Source of the DNA: Gammaproteobacteria bacterium
Lineage (GTDB): Bacteria > Pseudomonadota > Gammaproteobacteria > SZUA-229
Assembly: GCA_029881795.1 (NCBI GenBank)
Contig: JAOULX010000011.1
Coordinates: 1-41,082, forward strand
Length of the DNA stretch: 41,082 nucleotides
Direction of reading: 5' to 3'
Positions 7,276 through 12,374 of this stretch are shown here, one piece after another. The notes beneath the pieces are model-generated. The model saw only the letters and a list, made by a program, of their open reading frames with translations. It did no database searches and had not been told where the DNA came from. A program made the position numbers and the translations under genes. Within the stretch, counting starts at the first letter, position 1; each line of letters begins with the position of its first letter.

Positions 7276-7321
7276 CTCATAATGAACTTACGGGGCATTT
7301 TCAGCCTTGGGGATGGATTTA

Positions 7322-8005
7322 ATGGAATATGGCCAGTTTTGTCCGATTGCAAAAGCCACTGAAATTCTTGGAGAAAAGTGGACTATTTTAATTGTGCGAG
7401 AGCTGATAATGGGCAGCACGCGCTTCAATGATTTGCAGCGTGGTCTTAGTTTAATTTCTCCCACGCTGTTGTCGAAACGCCTTGAATCATTGACAGAGCA
7501 GGGGCTGATTTTAAAAAAGAAAATTCCCGGTCAGAAAAGCTATGAGTATTTTGCGACAGAATCCTGTAAAGAGTTATTGCCTGTTATTATCAATTTGGGT
7601 GAATGGGGTATGCGCTGGGCAAGATCGAATCTGACAGAAAAAGATTATGATGTCGAATTACTCATGCTCTATTTAAAGCGCAGTGTTATCCCTGAAAAGC
7701 TGATAGGCACTGAAACCGTTATTCGATTTAAATTCACAGACATTAAAGAATACCCTGACTGGTGGCTGGTTGTAGCTAACAATGAACTTGATGTTTGTGT
7801 GAAAGACCCGGGCAAGGATGTCGATGTTTACTTTACATCGACCGTAAGAACACTGGCGGATATCTGGATGGGCGATTGCAGTTATAAAAAAGCTCAGAGT
7901 CAGGGGCTTATGAAAATTGTCGGGAATAAACAGTTAACCAATAATATTACTTCATGGCTGGCAAACAGTATTTTTGCTGGCTTGCCGCCAGCGAGTGAGA
8001 TTTAA
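7322..8005 (+). CDS. HxlR-family transcriptional regulator with C-terminal extension
   Basis: The first about 110 residues are a winged helix of the HxlR type: FCPIAKATEILGEKWTILIV, then RFNDLQRGLSLISPTLLSKR and LTEQGLILKK, with the N-terminal Cys typical of the family. Residues 115-227 form an extension with a pattern like sterol-carrier (SCP2-like) domains found in some longer HxlR proteins (VYFTSTVRTLADIWMGDCS). I chose the ATG at 7322 because a GGGGA lies about 8 bases before it; an ATG at 7313 is possible. It is divergent from the 77-aa/31-aa/mddA operon and is its likely regulator. The ligand is unknown; a sulfur or redox signal would be a guess. Confidence 0.85.
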   Translation: MEYGQFCPIAKATEILGEKWTILIVRELIMGSTRFNDLQRGLSLISPTLLSKRLESLTEQGLILKKKIPGQKSYEYFATESCKELLPVIINLGEWGMRWARSNLTEKDYDVELLMLYLKRSVIPEKLIGTETVIRFKFTDIKEYPDWWLVVANNELDVCVKDPGKDVDVYFTSTVRTLADIWMGDCSYKKAQSQGLMKIVGNKQLTNNITSWLANSIFAGLPPASEI

Positions 8006-8127: not shown

Positions 8128-8264
8128 GTCTTGTCTGGACACCCATTTTATGGATTTCATAAAAAGATAATAAAAACAGCCGTTTGTCTTGTTAGTTAGT
8201 AAATCATAAATACCTAATATATGCTTTTCATTTTATTTTGTTAAGATGGGTGTCCAGACAAGTC
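8128..8264 (+). mobile_element. 137-bp MITE, copy 2
   Basis: This copy has the same length, orientation and termini as 782-918 (gtcttgtctggacaccca ... tgggtgtccagacaagtc). I count three substitutions, in cagccg versus cagaag and gcttttc versus gcttttt. It ends 14 bases before the stop codon of the ImmA-like gene and follows the HxlR gene by 122 bp, so it marks the left border of the accessory XRE-ImmA/E2-like region. The high identity suggests recent movement. Confidence 0.85.
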
Positions 8265-8278
8265 GGAAGAGAATAATA

Positions 8279-9139
8279 TCAATCGAAATTCCTTGGAGGC
8301 CATGCTTCTAAAGGTTTAGGTAAAACGAGCAATGTAATTATCATGTCATGTTGATTTGAATAAATTTTCATTTCTTGAATATCCATATCGCGTTCAGCAT
8401 GCTCAAACCAAATATTTGCTGCTATGTTTGCTCCATTGCGTTCATCAAATATCAATGTGTTGGCAGCAAGAGATTTTTCAGGAATTGGGATAATGTTACT
8501 ACGTGTTTTAAAAAAGGCCCCTGCCTTAAAAGCAGCTTTACTTGACCAAGCCCAATTCATAAAACCATCATTCGAAATTATTAATACAGCTTTTATATCT
8601 GTGTAGTCTAACCATTTTAATATAGATGCTATCATTGAAACACCATACCGGTCAGCACAATGACTAAATAGATCCATGTTTATTCTTGAAGTGACTTGCT
8701 TGCGATAATCATCAAGAGGCATTAATAAATACGAAGCGAACTGATCGGCCTGTGCTTCAATGTCTTTCTCAGCATCTGACCAGTTAAGCATATCGTTCTC
8801 ATTACATTGAAATGAGTCCTTTTGTGTCCGATGAAGTAGATAGTGACCTAGCTCGTGCGCTTGTGTGAATCTTATTCGTCCTGATGATAATGTATTGTTA
8901 TAAAGTAGTTTCCATTTGTCTTTACTATCATTGGAGAATAAGCAGCCAACAAAATTCTTTATATCCGCTGCTTGAATTTCTGTAATTTCGCTACCTAAAT
9001 CAAATTGCTTCCCACATTGAAGAGCAAGATCTTTGACATCAACTGGAAATCTTTTATTTATATTGTCAGCACTGTATGCCTCAAGAATACGCGATAGTCT
9101 ATTTGCCGTACTTTTGGGAGACAATTTACCGGTCTTCAT
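8279..9139 (-). CDS. ImmA/IrrE-family metallopeptidase
   Basis: The 286-aa protein carries the zinc protease motif HELGHYLLH (His95, Glu96, His99) and the downstream EAQADQFASYLLMP with Glu128 as the likely third ligand. This is the ImmA/IrrE (DUF955) signature. The C-terminal half (residues 150-286) is a less conserved sensor-like region. ImmA-type proteases cleave or relieve partner XRE repressors in mobile elements; IrrE acts the same way on DdrO. The start ATGA overlaps the stop of the XRE gene by 4 bp, so the two are translationally coupled and very likely a functional pair. Confidence 0.9.
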   Translation of the reverse strand: MKTGKLSPKSTANRLSRILEAYSADNINKRFPVDVKDLALQCGKQFDLGSEITEIQAADIKNFVGCLFSNDSKDKWKLLYNNTLSSGRIRFTQAHELGHYLLHRTQKDSFQCNENDMLNWSDAEKDIEAQADQFASYLLMPLDDYRKQVTSRINMDLFSHCADRYGVSMIASILKWLDYTDIKAVLIISNDGFMNWAWSSKAAFKAGAFFKTRSNIIPIPEKSLAANTLIFDERNGANIAANIWFEHAERDMDIQEMKIYSNQHDMIITLLVLPKPLEAWPPRNFD

Positions 9140-9459
9140 GTTTTCTTTTTAAATGTTTCCATGATTTTTTTGAGCTGTTCCTTATCATCTGGTTCAAGCT
9201 TTTTATAACTTCGAAAAAAAGCTTCATCTAAATGCTGTTCTTCAGGGGCCTCAAAATCCTGTTCGATTAAGTATGCTGCTGTAATACCTAGCGCATCAGC
9301 AAGAGTAGTTAACTTCTCTGCTGATGGGCTTCTTTCTTCACGGTTCTCTAGTTCCCATATATAGCTTTTACTAATATTGGTAATTGTCGCCAACTGCTCA
9401 AGAGTCATTTTTTTCTCTTTTCGAAGCGCTCGGAGTTTGTCACCAAGGCGAGATGCCAT
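9136..9459 (-). CDS. XRE-family transcriptional regulator
   Basis: The 107-aa protein starts with a Cro/CI-type helix-turn-helix (residues 5-62): LRALRKEKKMTLEQLATIT, then ISKSYIWELENREERSPSAE. The acidic C-terminal tail (EEQHLDEAFFRSYKKLEPD) looks like a partner-contact or cleavage region. A GAGG site lies about 9 bases before the ATG. It is the first gene of the XRE-ImmA pair and is divergent from the E2-like unit across about 150-300 bp containing TATCGA-type repeats, its likely operators. It probably represses itself and perhaps the E2-like genes. Confidence 0.9.
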   Translation of the reverse strand: MASRLGDKLRALRKEKKMTLEQLATITNISKSYIWELENREERSPSAEKLTTLADALGITAAYLIEQDFEAPEEQHLDEAFFRSYKKLEPDDKEQLKKIMETFKKKT

Positions 9460-9499
9460 ATATAAACCTCGTTAATAAATATAATAAGAGAATATACCA

Positions 9500-9597
9500 C
9501 TATATCGAAAATAAAGTTTGACAATGATGGTCTTTTAACCGAATATACTCAATAAGTTCGATATATAGGAAAATAATTATCGAAATATAAGTAAAGA
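9500..9597. promoter_or_regulatory. Candidate XRE operators and divergent promoter
   Basis: Related motifs recur in this AT-rich gap: ctatatcgaaaataaag (about 9500-9516), ttcgatatatagg (about 9557-9569) and tatcgaaatataag (about 9579-9592). The first two form an inverted pair around ctatatcga/tcgatatatag. A TTGACA box at 9518-9523 points to the plus strand, with gaatat at 9541 (17-base spacing) or tatact at 9544 (20-base spacing) as a -10. This arrangement would let the XRE protein control both sides. The exact sites are inferred. Confidence 0.45.
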
Positions 9598-9755
9598 TAG
9601 AGAAGAAATAAACATGAAGACACTTTTACATGAAGATTTGCGGTTGATTGGACTTCAGTTGGATAAGAATATTTTTCCTCGAGTCTTAAATGGTGGTGTT
9701 GTCATGCCCAGCAAGACTGCCATTCCTTCGATAATTATGGGCGAGGTAAGTAACG

Positions 9756-9914
9756 ATGAAAGACGAAAAAGACAGAAACGACCCGAAACCAGACAAGGGC
9801 AAAGGCCCCCCAGATGGCAAGGGGAAACCAGAGGACGCAGGAAGACCAGTGGAGCCACACAGGTCATCAGCTCAAGTATTCATGAAAAATACATGGATGA
9901 ACTCGTCAGTCTAA
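9756..9914 (+). CDS. Small Lys/Asp/Pro/Gly-rich ORF upstream of the E2-like gene
   Basis: This 52-codon frame begins MKDEKDRNDPKPDKGKGPPD and continues GKGKPEDAGRPVEP. It has a GGCGAGG ribosome site 9 bases before the ATG. In the overlapping E2 reading frame the same bases give an arginine-rich string using the rare codons AGA, AGG and CGA, which argues that this frame is the coding one between 9756 and about 9870. Low-complexity K/D/P/G-rich leaders of this kind occur at the N-termini of some bacterial ubiquitin-like (multiubiquitin) proteins, but no beta-grasp domain follows. It overlaps the preferred E2 start by 22 bases in the -1 relation, so it may be a separate coupled peptide, a truncated gene, or the N-terminus of the E2 protein joined by frameshift. 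Confidence 0.45.
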   Translation: MKDEKDRNDPKPDKGKGPPDGKGKPEDAGRPVEPHRSSAQVFMKNTWMNSSV

Positions 9915-10477
9915 AAGAGGCGTATCCAGGGATGAAAATATGGGAACAAAAGGATGGGATGTGGCTGTTATGCCAAAGTGCATTAATACCTAATGCATTA
10001 CACAGAGCGATATTTTTATGTGGCATCCCGTTTGACCCGAGAAAAAGGGTGCGAAGTTGGGGTTTTTGGAATGAGGGCGTATGGATCGGACCTAGGCACA
10101 CAAATATGCCCGATGGTTCAATTTGTGCATTTGAGCCATCCGATGGTACGTGGTTGCCGGGTGATTCAATTATAAAGTTACTAGATATCTATACTTTGTG
10201 GGCAGTACGGCACCTGCACTTACAGGTATTAAATCGCTGGCCTGGTGCACAAGTAGCGCACCATGCTTATGAAAGACTTTCGGAATTAAAAGAAGACGAG
10301 CTTTGTGGTTGTGGGTCTTTTACTAAAAAATATGGTGAGTGTTGTCGGCCTAATGACCTCAGGAGAGACCGAGTTGCTGATGCAACTAAATTTATATTTG
10401 ATGGCGGGGCAGATCGTAAACCACCAGAAGATGTAATGCGATTTATAGATGAGAAAGATACCCCACCATTATTGTAA
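9893..10477 (+). CDS. E2 ubiquitin-conjugating-like protein with SEC-C zinc motif
   Basis: From the ATG at 9893 the product has 194 residues. Residues 1-110 show an E2-like order: N-terminal helix (MDELVSLKEAYPGMKIWEQ), strands, then GPRHTNMPDGSICAF with His69 and candidate catalytic Cys78, then TWLPGDSIIKLLDIY, matching the E2 pattern HPN..G.ICL....W.P...I..LL. Residues 138-151 are a SEC-C zinc motif, CGCGSFTKKYGECC. E2 enzymes carry ubiquitin-like proteins on the cysteine; bacterial ones act in CBASS Cap2 and Bil-type conjugation. No ThiF (E1) or JAB gene is in the window. The frame is open back to an ATG at 9614 with a fair AGAAG site, giving 287 residues, but the extra part is unlike any domain I know. 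Function is inferred from motifs only. Confidence 0.65.
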   Translation: MDELVSLKEAYPGMKIWEQKDGMWLLCQSALIPNALHRAIFLCGIPFDPRKRVRSWGFWNEGVWIGPRHTNMPDGSICAFEPSDGTWLPGDSIIKLLDIYTLWAVRHLHLQVLNRWPGAQVAHHAYERLSELKEDELCGCGSFTKKYGECCRPNDLRRDRVADATKFIFDGGADRKPPEDVMRFIDEKDTPPLL

Positions 10478-10922
10478 ACAACTTAAGGGGTCAGAGCCCT
10501 TAAACTCGTTGGGTTTCCTTCGTTAACCCAATCTACAAAAAAATGCATGCTTTAGAATTTGATTTATCCCTCCCCATTTAACCAAGCCGAGGAAGGCGCA
10601 ATATGGACGGGGCTTTCTGCGAGGATGTTTGAGCGAATGCTTTTTTCGCGAGTTCCGCAGTAGCCGTCGATATTGCGACTGACGAGGGGACTCTCATTGC
10701 TTTTTAATGAGAGCTTGATTAACGGGGCGGCTCTCTTTTGGTTACTTTTCTATAGCTGTAGATAGAAAAGTGACTAGCTGTCGGTCTACCACCGACGCCT
10801 TTGATTTTGATCTTAAGAATTGTTGGGGTTCGTTCCTCACCCCAACCTACAAAACTATTTACACAAACAAAAAAGCCCAACACAAGTCGGGCTTCCTCAC
10901 AAAAAGTTAAAACTAAAAACTT
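10478..10922. repeat. Structured intergenic block bounded by 29-bp repeats
   Basis: No gene is seen. Two related 29-bp sequences in the same orientation bound the block: gttgggtttccttcgttaac... at 10508-10536 and gttggggttcgttcctcacc... at 10822-10850, each an internal hairpin and each ending in ctac. Between them are hairpins at 10691-10713 (ctctcatt/aatgagag) and 10744-10771 (acttttctat/atagaaaagt, 10-bp perfect stem). A separate hairpin, 10483-10503 (ttaaggg/cccttaa), follows the E2-like stop. Sequences of this gttgggtt...aacccaa type are widespread interspersed repeats in Gammaproteobacteria, from memory. It may be a non-coding mobile repeat or a structured RNA. Confidence 0.5.
10867..10893 (-). 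terminator. Terminator after gltD
   Basis: On the minus strand aagcccgac-ttgt-gttgggctt forms a stem with one mismatch followed by a run of T, about 30 bp after the gltD stop. Confidence 0.8.
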
Positions 10923-12374
10923 TTAACTTTTCAAATAACCATCAATAACCTCAGCCGCACCACGTCCTTCATTAATCCCCCAAACCACCAGCGACTGACC
11001 ACGACGACAATCGCCCGCCGTAAATACACCTTTTACGCTAGTCGCGTAATTGCCGTATTCCGCTTTATAGTTTGAGCGATCATCTGTATCAACACCTAAT
11101 GCTTCACTGATGTAATGCTCTGGCCCAAGAAAGCCCATTGCGAGTAACACTAAATCAGCAGGCCAGACTTTTTCTGAACCAGCGATTTCTTTCATGTTCC
11201 AACGACCTGTTTCTTCGTCCGCTTCCCATTCAACTTCTACTGAGGTTACAGACTTCACGTTGCCGTTGCCATCATCACTGAAGTTTTTGCTCAGTTTGCA
11301 GTAAGTACGTGGGTCTTCGCCTTGTACTTTTTCTGCTTCTGCGTGACCGTAATCAACGCGGTAGATGTGCGGCCATGCTGGCCATGGATTATTTTCTGCA
11401 CGTTCTGCTGGCGGTGTTGGCATTAACTCGAAGTTAACCACTGACTTGCAGCCGTGACGCAGAGCGGTACCGATACAATCGGTACCGGTATCACCACCAC
11501 CGATAACAACCACATTTTTATCTTTAGCAGAAATGTAATTGCCGTCTGCTAAATTCGAATCTAATAAACTTTTTGTGTTCGCTGTCAGGTATTCCATGGC
11601 GAAATGAACACCGTTTAAATCACGGCCTTCAACCGCTAAATCACGCGGTGTTGTTGCGCCGGTTGCTAATAACAGTGCATCGTTATTCGTCATCACTTCT
11701 TTAACATCGACATTGTTACCAACATCAGCGTTTACTTCAAATTGGATGCCAGCTTCGCGCATTAAATCAACACGGCGATCGATAACGGCTTTTTCAAGCT
11801 TCATGTTGGGGATGCCGTACATTAACAGGCCACCGATACGGTCAGCACGTTCGTAAACAGTGACGTCATGGCCAGCTTCATTTAATTGTTCTGCTGCGGC
11901 TAAACCGGCAGGGCCTGAGCCGACGATAGCGACTTTTTTACCGGAACGTGAGGCTGATTTTTTTGCTGTGATCCAGCCTTCGTCAAAGGCGCGGTCAACG
12001 ATAGCGCATTCGATATTTTTAATGGTAACCGCCGGCTCAATCACACCCAGTACACAAGCGCCTTCACAGGGAGCAGGGCAGACGCGGCCAGTGAATTCAG
12101 GGAAGTTGTTGGTAGAGTGCAGACGTTCGTTAGCATCTTGCCAGCGATTGTTATAAACCAGATCGTTCCATTCTGGAATTAAGTTATCAACCGGGCAGCC
12201 ATCATTTGACTGACAGAACGGAATGCCACAATCCATACAACGTGCACCCTGAGTGTTCAGCTGTGCTTCGTCATGTGCGGTGTAAATTTCGCCGTAGTCT
12301 TTCAGGCGTTCAGTCACATCGCGGTATGGCGCTGTCTTACGTTCAAATTCTTTAAAGCCTGTTACTTTACCCAT
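10923..12374 (-). CDS. gltD: Glutamate synthase [NADPH] small subunit
   Basis: The 483-aa protein supplies electrons from NADPH to the GltB subunit for making two glutamates from glutamine and 2-oxoglutarate. The N-terminal domain has the cysteine clusters for two 4Fe-4S centres ([10 protein letters not shown], then CPVDN, and [12 protein letters not shown]). The FAD site is [17 protein letters not shown] at about residue 148 and the NADPH site [15 protein letters not shown] at about residue 287. A C-terminal FAD motif ([19 protein letters not shown]) is present. Length and motifs are normal. It follows gltB by 171 bp that contain a long inverted repeat, so its expression may be tuned separately from gltB. 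Confidence 0.98.

Follow-up and report, generated by a model that had tools for sequence, protein, structure and literature searches.

Bil and Bub operons encode a ubiquitin-like protein together with an E1, and Bub operons include an E2-type protein as well. In type II CBASS, the Cap2 protein of the Cap2/Cap3 pair is an E1-E2 fusion, while CdnG-E2 of Serratia marcescens (8yjy/8hsb) carries an E2 in what we take to be a type II-short (E2-only) CBASS. The prokaryotic E2-like families of Iyer et al. (2006) are bacterial and have conserved residues and, in the part of that paper that was available, come with E1, JAB or Ub-like genes (PMC1779556); neither SEC-C nor overlapping appears as a term in the same portion of its text. 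According to the available part of another paper, CapW/BrxR and the CapH+CapP pair are DNA-damage-responsive regulators that control adjacent immune operons, CapP, once activated by ssDNA, cleaves CapH, and CapW or CapH+CapP accompany 219 of 544 Bub operons (PMC13373217). CBASS operons likewise include CapW or CapH+CapP in the accessible sections of PMC10419184, and mobile elements are also placed under XRE-ImmA-type modules in those of PMC10233336. Overprinted gene pairs are best known in viruses. In them, one DNA specifies two proteins in different frames, as far as the available excerpt of PMC8227390 goes.

The locus described here joins an E2-fold protein to a CapH/CapP-type locus. It lies on contig JAOULX010000011.1 of assembly GCA_029881795.1, in a stretch of 41,082 nt that is called the window below, with loci numbered on the forward strand. 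OrfA (9614-10477, forward strand) is a 287-aa E2-like protein, delimited by its open reading frame, by aligned same-frame relatives and by an AlphaFold2 model, and OrfB (9756-9914, forward strand, stop TAA included) is a 52-aa Pro/Gly-rich protein nested in the +1 frame of the OrfA linker and recognised by tests of dual coding. Upstream and on the reverse strand stand capH (9136-9459), a divergent XRE-type repressor gene, and capP (8279-9139), which encodes an ImmA/IrrE-like protease. The divergent promoter region between them and OrfA (9460-9613, no strand assigned) contains an imperfect inverted repeat (arms 9492-9509 and 9557-9574, 78% complementary) that is, from its sequence, a possible operator. 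The evidence for the two-gene OrfA-OrfB anatomy is strong, and the locus appears to be a compact module for stress or immunity, of an undescribed kind.

Comparison with the described systems shows both likeness and difference. CdnG-E2 is the top structural neighbour of both OrfA models and CBASS operons have regulators in common with the locus, whereas OrfA comes without a visible cyclase, is only 11-13% identical in the structural alignments, and adds an N-terminal element, a linker with a nested gene and a C-terminal cysteine cluster. The E2-like domain and the regulators are also common to Cap2/Cap3 systems, but an E1 domain is missing from OrfA, and its surroundings in the window showed neither a JAB nor a cyclase gene. 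The association with CapW or CapH+CapP recalls Bub operons; unlike in Bil and Bub, neither an E1 nor a recognised ubiquitin-like protein was found at the OrfA locus, and the E1, JAB or Ub-like companions of the Iyer et al. families likewise set those apart from OrfA. The locus is not CBASS as defined, because no cyclase goes with the module, nor is it a Cap2-, Bil- or Bub-type operon, because no E1 was found in it. In contrast to viral overprinting, the OrfA-OrfB pair is bacterial, chromosomal as well as plasmid-borne, and conserved across several proteobacterial classes. Our preferred reading, to which we assign a probability of about 0.5, is that it would constitute a two-protein module for DNA damage or phage stress, in which an E1-less, E2-like OrfA acts on or with the nested OrfB.

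Relatives of OrfA were collected by two motif-free routes, a tblastn search in plasmids (3 records) and a search of 369 genomes of the class (1 relative besides the host), and by a pattern scan of 84,980 species genomes, which gave 66 further loci. The 71 relatives thus comprise the 66 scan loci, the window, L002 and the 3 plasmid loci; 68 of the 71 form the readable set, and representatives were chosen as 44 loci below 80% identity or, more strictly, 32 below 60%. The patterns used for the scan fall within the E2 core, so that OrfB played no part in selection. Record titles place the relatives in alpha-, beta-, gamma- and deltaproteobacteria, plus one contig binned as Flavobacteriales. Phage records searched for OrfA relatives gave no match, and 0 of 19 candidates from viral contigs were genuine. 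A wider E2 search of 398 genomes returned the window's own genome and three marginal matches (E 0.004-0.007), which were dropped. Among the 71 relatives, OrfA is broken in L066, L068 and L070, the last by a frameshift; OrfB is readable in L066 and L070 despite the broken OrfA, and the patterns missed it in L068. In L067, a frame break lies near the OrfA C-terminus only.

OrfA consists of an N-terminal element, a disordered basic linker, an E2-like domain and a SEC-C-like cysteine cluster. The sequence-only reading had begun the gene at 9893, and the interval 9893-10477 on the forward strand is open and encodes HTNMPDGSICAF, TWLPGDSIIKLL and CGCGSFTKKYGECC. The start has to be moved, since this frame stays open, and is conserved, as far upstream as an ATG at 9614, which yields the 287 residues. 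The N-terminal parts of relatives from the motif-free routes align with this extension. Its first 35 residues (9614-9718, forward strand; L..IG.QLD...FP.V.NGG.V.P) stand out as an element by pLDDT (block values of 88-96 for residues 1-30 in AlphaFold2), by frame-0 codon-position bias and by start-codon spacing, the start codon lying exactly 11 codons ahead of the conserved IG in 50 of the 67 loci with a recognised motif and in 29/44 representatives. In addition, 28 of the 44 representatives have no in-frame start from the OrfB start to 12 nt beyond the OrfB stop, so translation of the E2 part there has to come through from upstream. In the window an in-frame ATG is present at 9893; a short E2 starting there was rejected as not conserved among relatives.

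The same reading had described OrfA as an orphan and possibly stand-alone E2, which is misleading, as it harbours a second, conserved gene, the +1 ORF at 9756-9914, which had been overlooked. Ahead of the OrfB ATG lies a ribosome-binding-like site, GAGGT (9743-9747, forward strand), recognised by the conservation of an SD-like motif that is found at this place in 66/68 loci, as against 1267 of 13812 ATGs (9.2%) in the fetched DNA. The consensus of OrfB is MxDxxRxDPQPDHGKGPPxGKGRPxDxGRPVPPHRSSAQ; in divergent members the middle becomes His-, Gly- or Gln-rich and the GRPVxPHRS part is kept. Its length is 41-63 residues over the 68 loci and 41-60 (median 48) in the 44 representatives, where proline makes up 16% and glycine 12%; from this composition the protein is probably disordered. 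At least one lysine is present in the OrfB of all 68 loci, and GKG in 58 of them. The conserved part finishes near H-[RG]-S-[SA]-[AS] and is followed by a variable tail that overlaps the start of the E2 domain; at the C-terminus there is no conserved Gly and the final residue varies. Searches of Pfam and the PDB with OrfB gave no convincing family and no match, respectively. We infer that OrfB is translated. An OrfB profile run against 398 genomes found the window copy and two weak matches (L074 and L075); both lack an E2 in their vicinity and were put down to chance, so that a wider OrfB family was rejected. The idea that the +1 ORF is the stump of a gene lost by deletion was likewise refuted by its conservation in relatives.

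Both reading frames are under selection. Under synonymous recoding of OrfB according to local codon usage, the outer frame was expected to stay open over the OrfB core in 3.15 of the 44 representatives and did so in 44/44; in the stricter set 2.55 were expected and 32/32 observed. The converse null, in which frame 0 is recoded and an open +1 frame is asked for, is much weaker (26.4 expected vs 44). At third positions where T would create an outer stop it occurs 0 times in 358, against 284 of 920 at other third positions, and the outer frame is open across OrfB in 68/68 loci. By comparison, the antisense frames are open over OrfB in 13, 3 and 6 of 32 loci, and the third sense frame in 4/32. Within the overlap the third position of the +1 frame is free (entropy 1.51-1.75) and positions 1 and 2 are nearly fixed (0.19-0.64), whereas before and after it the free position is the third of frame 0; selection therefore shifts from frame 0 to +1 and back to 0. 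In the C-terminal block, anchored on the HRS-type motif in 32 loci, OrfB reaches an amino-acid identity of 0.69 and the outer frame 0.24. For the DPQPDHGKGPPDGKG block (23 of the 32 loci) the values are 0.80 and 0.36, but this block was chosen by an OrfB pattern, which flatters the 0.80. Neither frame is conserved over the final eight codons of OrfB (0.15 and 0.19). The higher identity of OrfB in the overlap indicates that OrfB is the constrained protein and that the outer frame is kept open as the link to the E2 domain. The same figures bear on whether OrfB is mainly regulatory, its nested-frame translation tuning that of OrfA much as a leader peptide would and the peptide itself being unimportant. 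The SD-like site in 66/68 loci and the complete nesting agree with such a role, whereas the selection on OrfB amino acids (+1 third position 1.51-1.75 vs 0.19-0.64) speaks against it, and we regard it as very unlikely.

The structural case for OrfA rests on two AlphaFold2 models, one of full-length OrfA (42 sequences; pLDDT 85.1) and one of the E2 and cysteine part alone (pLDDT 88.8). In the former, residues 1-35 and 87-287 are mostly of high confidence, and the linker (residues 36-85) is mostly below 50. The E2-like domain, residues 86-225 (9869-10288, forward strand), was assigned from these models. VIA-align placed the E2 of Serratia CdnG-E2 (8yjy_B) first for both, with Z 8.4, rmsd 3.1 and 127 aligned residues for the full-length model (next system 6.5) and Z 9.7, rmsd 3.6 and 129 aligned residues for the domain model (next system 7.3). 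The program itself warns that best Z values of 7 to 8 are common for models lacking a clear match. Because such values alone are common, the evidence for an E2 lies in the margin, the coverage and the uniformity of the lists, which hold mostly E2, UEV and UFC1 chains and few other folds (for example capping protein, Z 6.8).

Other searches give a fainter signal in the same direction. Foldseek ranked E2 and UFC1 chains on top for the full model, not significantly (best E 0.059), and for the domain model UbcH8 came first (E 0.14, also not significant) with unrelated chains intermixed; the bacterial E1-E2-Ubl complex 8tz0/8tyz, presumably that of Bil, appears in the OrfA Foldseek list. With a cut-off of E 1, 13 of the 42 members matched the PADLOC E2 model PDLC00858; taking all PADLOC E2 models together, the lowest E was 2.8e-4. 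Profile searches of PDB sequences with OrfA found no E2 and nothing convincing, and Pfam and NCBIfam no convincing family. The sequence-only reading had proposed that the fold be predicted and compared with E2 structures; the predicted models are E2-like, and this assignment, with the CBASS-type E2 as the closest known kind, is well supported by the models, the E2-dominated VIA lists and the weak but repeated PADLOC matches, the Foldseek hits being not significant. OrfA may function in the manner of the type II-short CBASS E2.

The residues expected of such an enzyme are conserved. The catalytic-type cysteine, numbered 78 in the shorter gene and 171 in OrfA (codon 10124-10126, forward strand), is invariant in the aligned readable loci, as HTN and GS-[IVM]-C are both present in 68/68. 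The cysteine had been singled out beforehand, together with an upstream His, as a residue that should be kept among homologues, and both are. The His and Asn of HTN sit inside a pattern matched by all loci, so that the scan loci offer no independent evidence of their conservation; both residues are also present in the four loci that similarity searches alone had yielded. One scan pattern contains the cysteine, and 27 loci match only the Cys-free pattern; GS[IVM]C is present in 26 of these, the 27th being the frameshifted L070. Formation and transfer of a thioester by OrfA are putative. Further towards the C-terminus, the SEC-C-like cluster CGCGSFTKKYGECC (10304-10348, forward strand) was delimited by pattern conservation and a weak Pfam SEC-C signal. 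The residues of the motif announced at this place are real, with C-x-C...C-[CH] in 68/68 readable loci, whereas Pfam SEC-C rings in 2 of 42 members only (best E 3.3e-4) and the window protein is not among them, so that SEC-C is a weak, motif-based call for the OrfA tail.

The E2-like gene sits under swappable repressors of the DNA-damage class. The XRE-ImmA neighbours seen in the window were identified by PADLOC and PDB matches as CapH (PADLOC capH, E=2e-29; HTH_3) and CapP (PADLOC capP, E=7.9e-75; structure 7t5t, E=9.5e-112 over residues 4-284). Among the 44 representatives, 31 have XRE and/or ImmA, 8 a WYL protein and 5 none found, some seeds having been named by eye. An independent recount, with profiles of relatives of the window CapP/CapH, a Rhizobium XRE-ImmA fusion and the L008 WYL protein, gave 30 with ImmA, 1 with XRE only (L038), 8 with WYL and 5 with none. 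Altogether 39/44 carry an XRE/ImmA or WYL regulator, identity to CapH, CapP and CapW having been tested in part only. Of the five without, L012 has 353 upstream bases only, and L023 has same-strand XRE- and ImmA-looking ORFs that the seeds missed. Seven of the 8 WYL proteins scan above the Pfam cut-off; that of L020 falls below and yet rings in PADLOC, and that of L008 is CapW by sequence (7tb6, E 3.3e-56). Exchange of the regulator is seen between close relatives: L021 (WYL) and L030 (ImmA, matching CapP at 1.8e-6) have OrfAs that are 83% identical, and L042 (WYL) and L043 (ImmA+XRE) ones that are 79% identical.

The search for partners covered the flanks (3 to 13 kb) of the 71 loci and the first 22 kb of the window. 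No E1 or JAB was found by phmmer except a Cap2 at L005; the queries were the host's two E1s and one JAB, so a distant E1 or JAB could escape. The listing of ThiF and JAB genes near homologues, which the sequence-only reading had proposed as a check, came out negative with these queries but for this Cap2, which belongs to a separate CBASS operon. Elsewhere, other contigs of the host genome encode two ThiF proteins and one JAB, and ThiF-family proteins are present somewhere in 30 of 32 relatives' genomes or records. OrfA might on these grounds be the E2 of a conventional ubiquitin-like pathway that is scattered, with its E1 elsewhere in the genome and OrfB as adaptor, and the Prok-JAB beside one host ThiF would fit this. 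The host E1s are on other contigs, however, and look like housekeeping genes, presumably MoeB- and TcdA-like, and the only E1-like flank ORF among the 71 loci is that of L005, from a search whose two queries may miss distant E1s. We consider a scattered pathway decidedly unlikely. The Prok-JAB in question adjoins a ThiF gene, which we take to be MoeB-like, at G000:C1:65434-66514 in the host genome, far from the window.

The SMODS cyclase has no match in the whole host genome, and in the relatives' genomes or records it is matched somewhere in 8/32 and in none of the other 24. The sequence-only reading had also raised the possibility of a relic of a larger operon, and a decayed remnant of CBASS or Bil could draw on the CapH/CapP pair and the E2 similarity, both of which occur in CBASS. 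This is largely contradicted by the layout, as the same compact OrfA-OrfB arrangement, its two frames readable in 68/71 relatives, recurs across alpha-, beta-, gamma- and deltaproteobacteria, and by the absence of the SMODS cyclase from the host genome and from 24/32 relatives' genomes or records; a remnant is, in our estimate, barely credible.

The preferred reading, in which OrfA acts on or with OrfB, can be put as a sequence of steps. Two proteins would be made from one stretch of DNA, the E2-like OrfA and the small OrfB in the +1 frame of its linker. CapH would repress the operon until ssDNA-activated CapP cleaves it, as published for CapP/CapH, and so releases expression. OrfA would then need no E1, a mode of action that has been proposed for E2-only (type II-short) CBASS and is put forward here on the ground that the module shows no E1, cyclase or recognised Ub-like protein. 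OrfA might bind OrfB or be switched by it, and it may trim OrfB after H-[RG]-S-[SA]-[AS] and attach it to a target, the processing at this motif being a guess. A specific form of this idea, that after DNA damage OrfA trims OrfB and attaches it, as a non-ubiquitin disordered modifier, to itself or to cell targets in an E1-free reaction, is tentative. Contact between the two proteins, a joint function, and toxicity or protection would follow from the reading. Counting against it are the control of mobile elements by XRE-ImmA-type modules, the missing Pfam and PDB matches and conserved C-terminal Gly of OrfB, and the ThiF-family proteins elsewhere in the host and in 30 of 32 records, which may supply an E1 in trans.

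We favour OrfB as a substrate or partner of OrfA, with OrfB as an inhibitor in second place. In that second case the locus would be a toxin-antitoxin or inhibitor pair, in which a harmful OrfA has its active site masked by the nested, disordered OrfB and the nesting keeps the two in step. The small size of OrfB, its disordered-looking composition and its occurrence with OrfA suit such a role, and control by CapH/CapP or CapW suggests a product that needs restraint. The GKG repeats (58/68) and the fixed C-terminal block would be unusual for a plain inhibitor, and the persistence of OrfB beside a broken OrfA in two loci fits an antitoxin only in part. This alternative is unlikely in our view.

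A literature search on E2-like/SEC-C proteins, SEC-C in anti-phage defence, nested defence genes and orphan bacterial E2s returned no description of the pair among the matches listed. If OrfB were attached as a modifier, the locus would be, to our knowledge, the first E2 and modifier made from one stretch of DNA. If OrfB is translated, it is a deeply conserved, out-of-frame nested bacterial gene with a clean statistical signature, inside a gene resembling that of an immune enzyme. The pair also makes testable what a bacterial E2 does without an E1 and without ubiquitin. Standard annotation misses it: of two annotated plasmid records, one lists OrfB and a truncated OrfA and the other neither. 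The Rhizobium etli record (L004) annotates exactly OrfB as a hypothetical CDS (WP_157700430.1, with OrfA truncated as WP_157700429.1; 5864-6007 and 6232-6699), and the Sulfitobacter plasmid (L003), where neither is listed, has an incomplete gene table.

The proposal that the gene is a defence component gains support from the regulators and from neighbouring defence genes, as judged by sequence matches. Seven of 8 hand-picked neighbours match defence models and the one at L007 none; besides the cases given below, the matches include a SIR2-type protein (L029), a restriction-type protein (L018) and a PifA-like protein (L022). PADLOC families number 93 near the module and 39 in the control (120/178 neighbours vs 120/153 control proteins), figures that count families, not proteins, with 25 listed, and that are only suggestive of enrichment in defence islands. 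On the Sulfitobacter plasmid, Gabija GajA and GajB (L003, 7672-11759) lie about 1 kb downstream of the module, and on a Sinorhizobium sojae plasmid (L005, 7816-11352) a CBASS Cap4-type effector and an E1-E2 Cap2-like protein adjoin it.

In the window, the module is flanked by ORFs at 7307-8005 and 10923-12374, presumably an HxlR-type regulator and a glutamate synthase subunit as judged by eye. The sequence-only reading had pointed to a MITE beside the gene; the MITE-like repeats are real, and nothing ties them to the module. One, at 8130-8262 just past the end of capP, has a 21-nt inverted repeat that is 95% complementary with its arms 91 nt apart. Downstream of OrfA, at about 10550-10850, an interspersed repeat recurs at 8 other places in the host genome with 72-91% identity over 141-304 bases, and a further 8 matches there are shorter or weaker.
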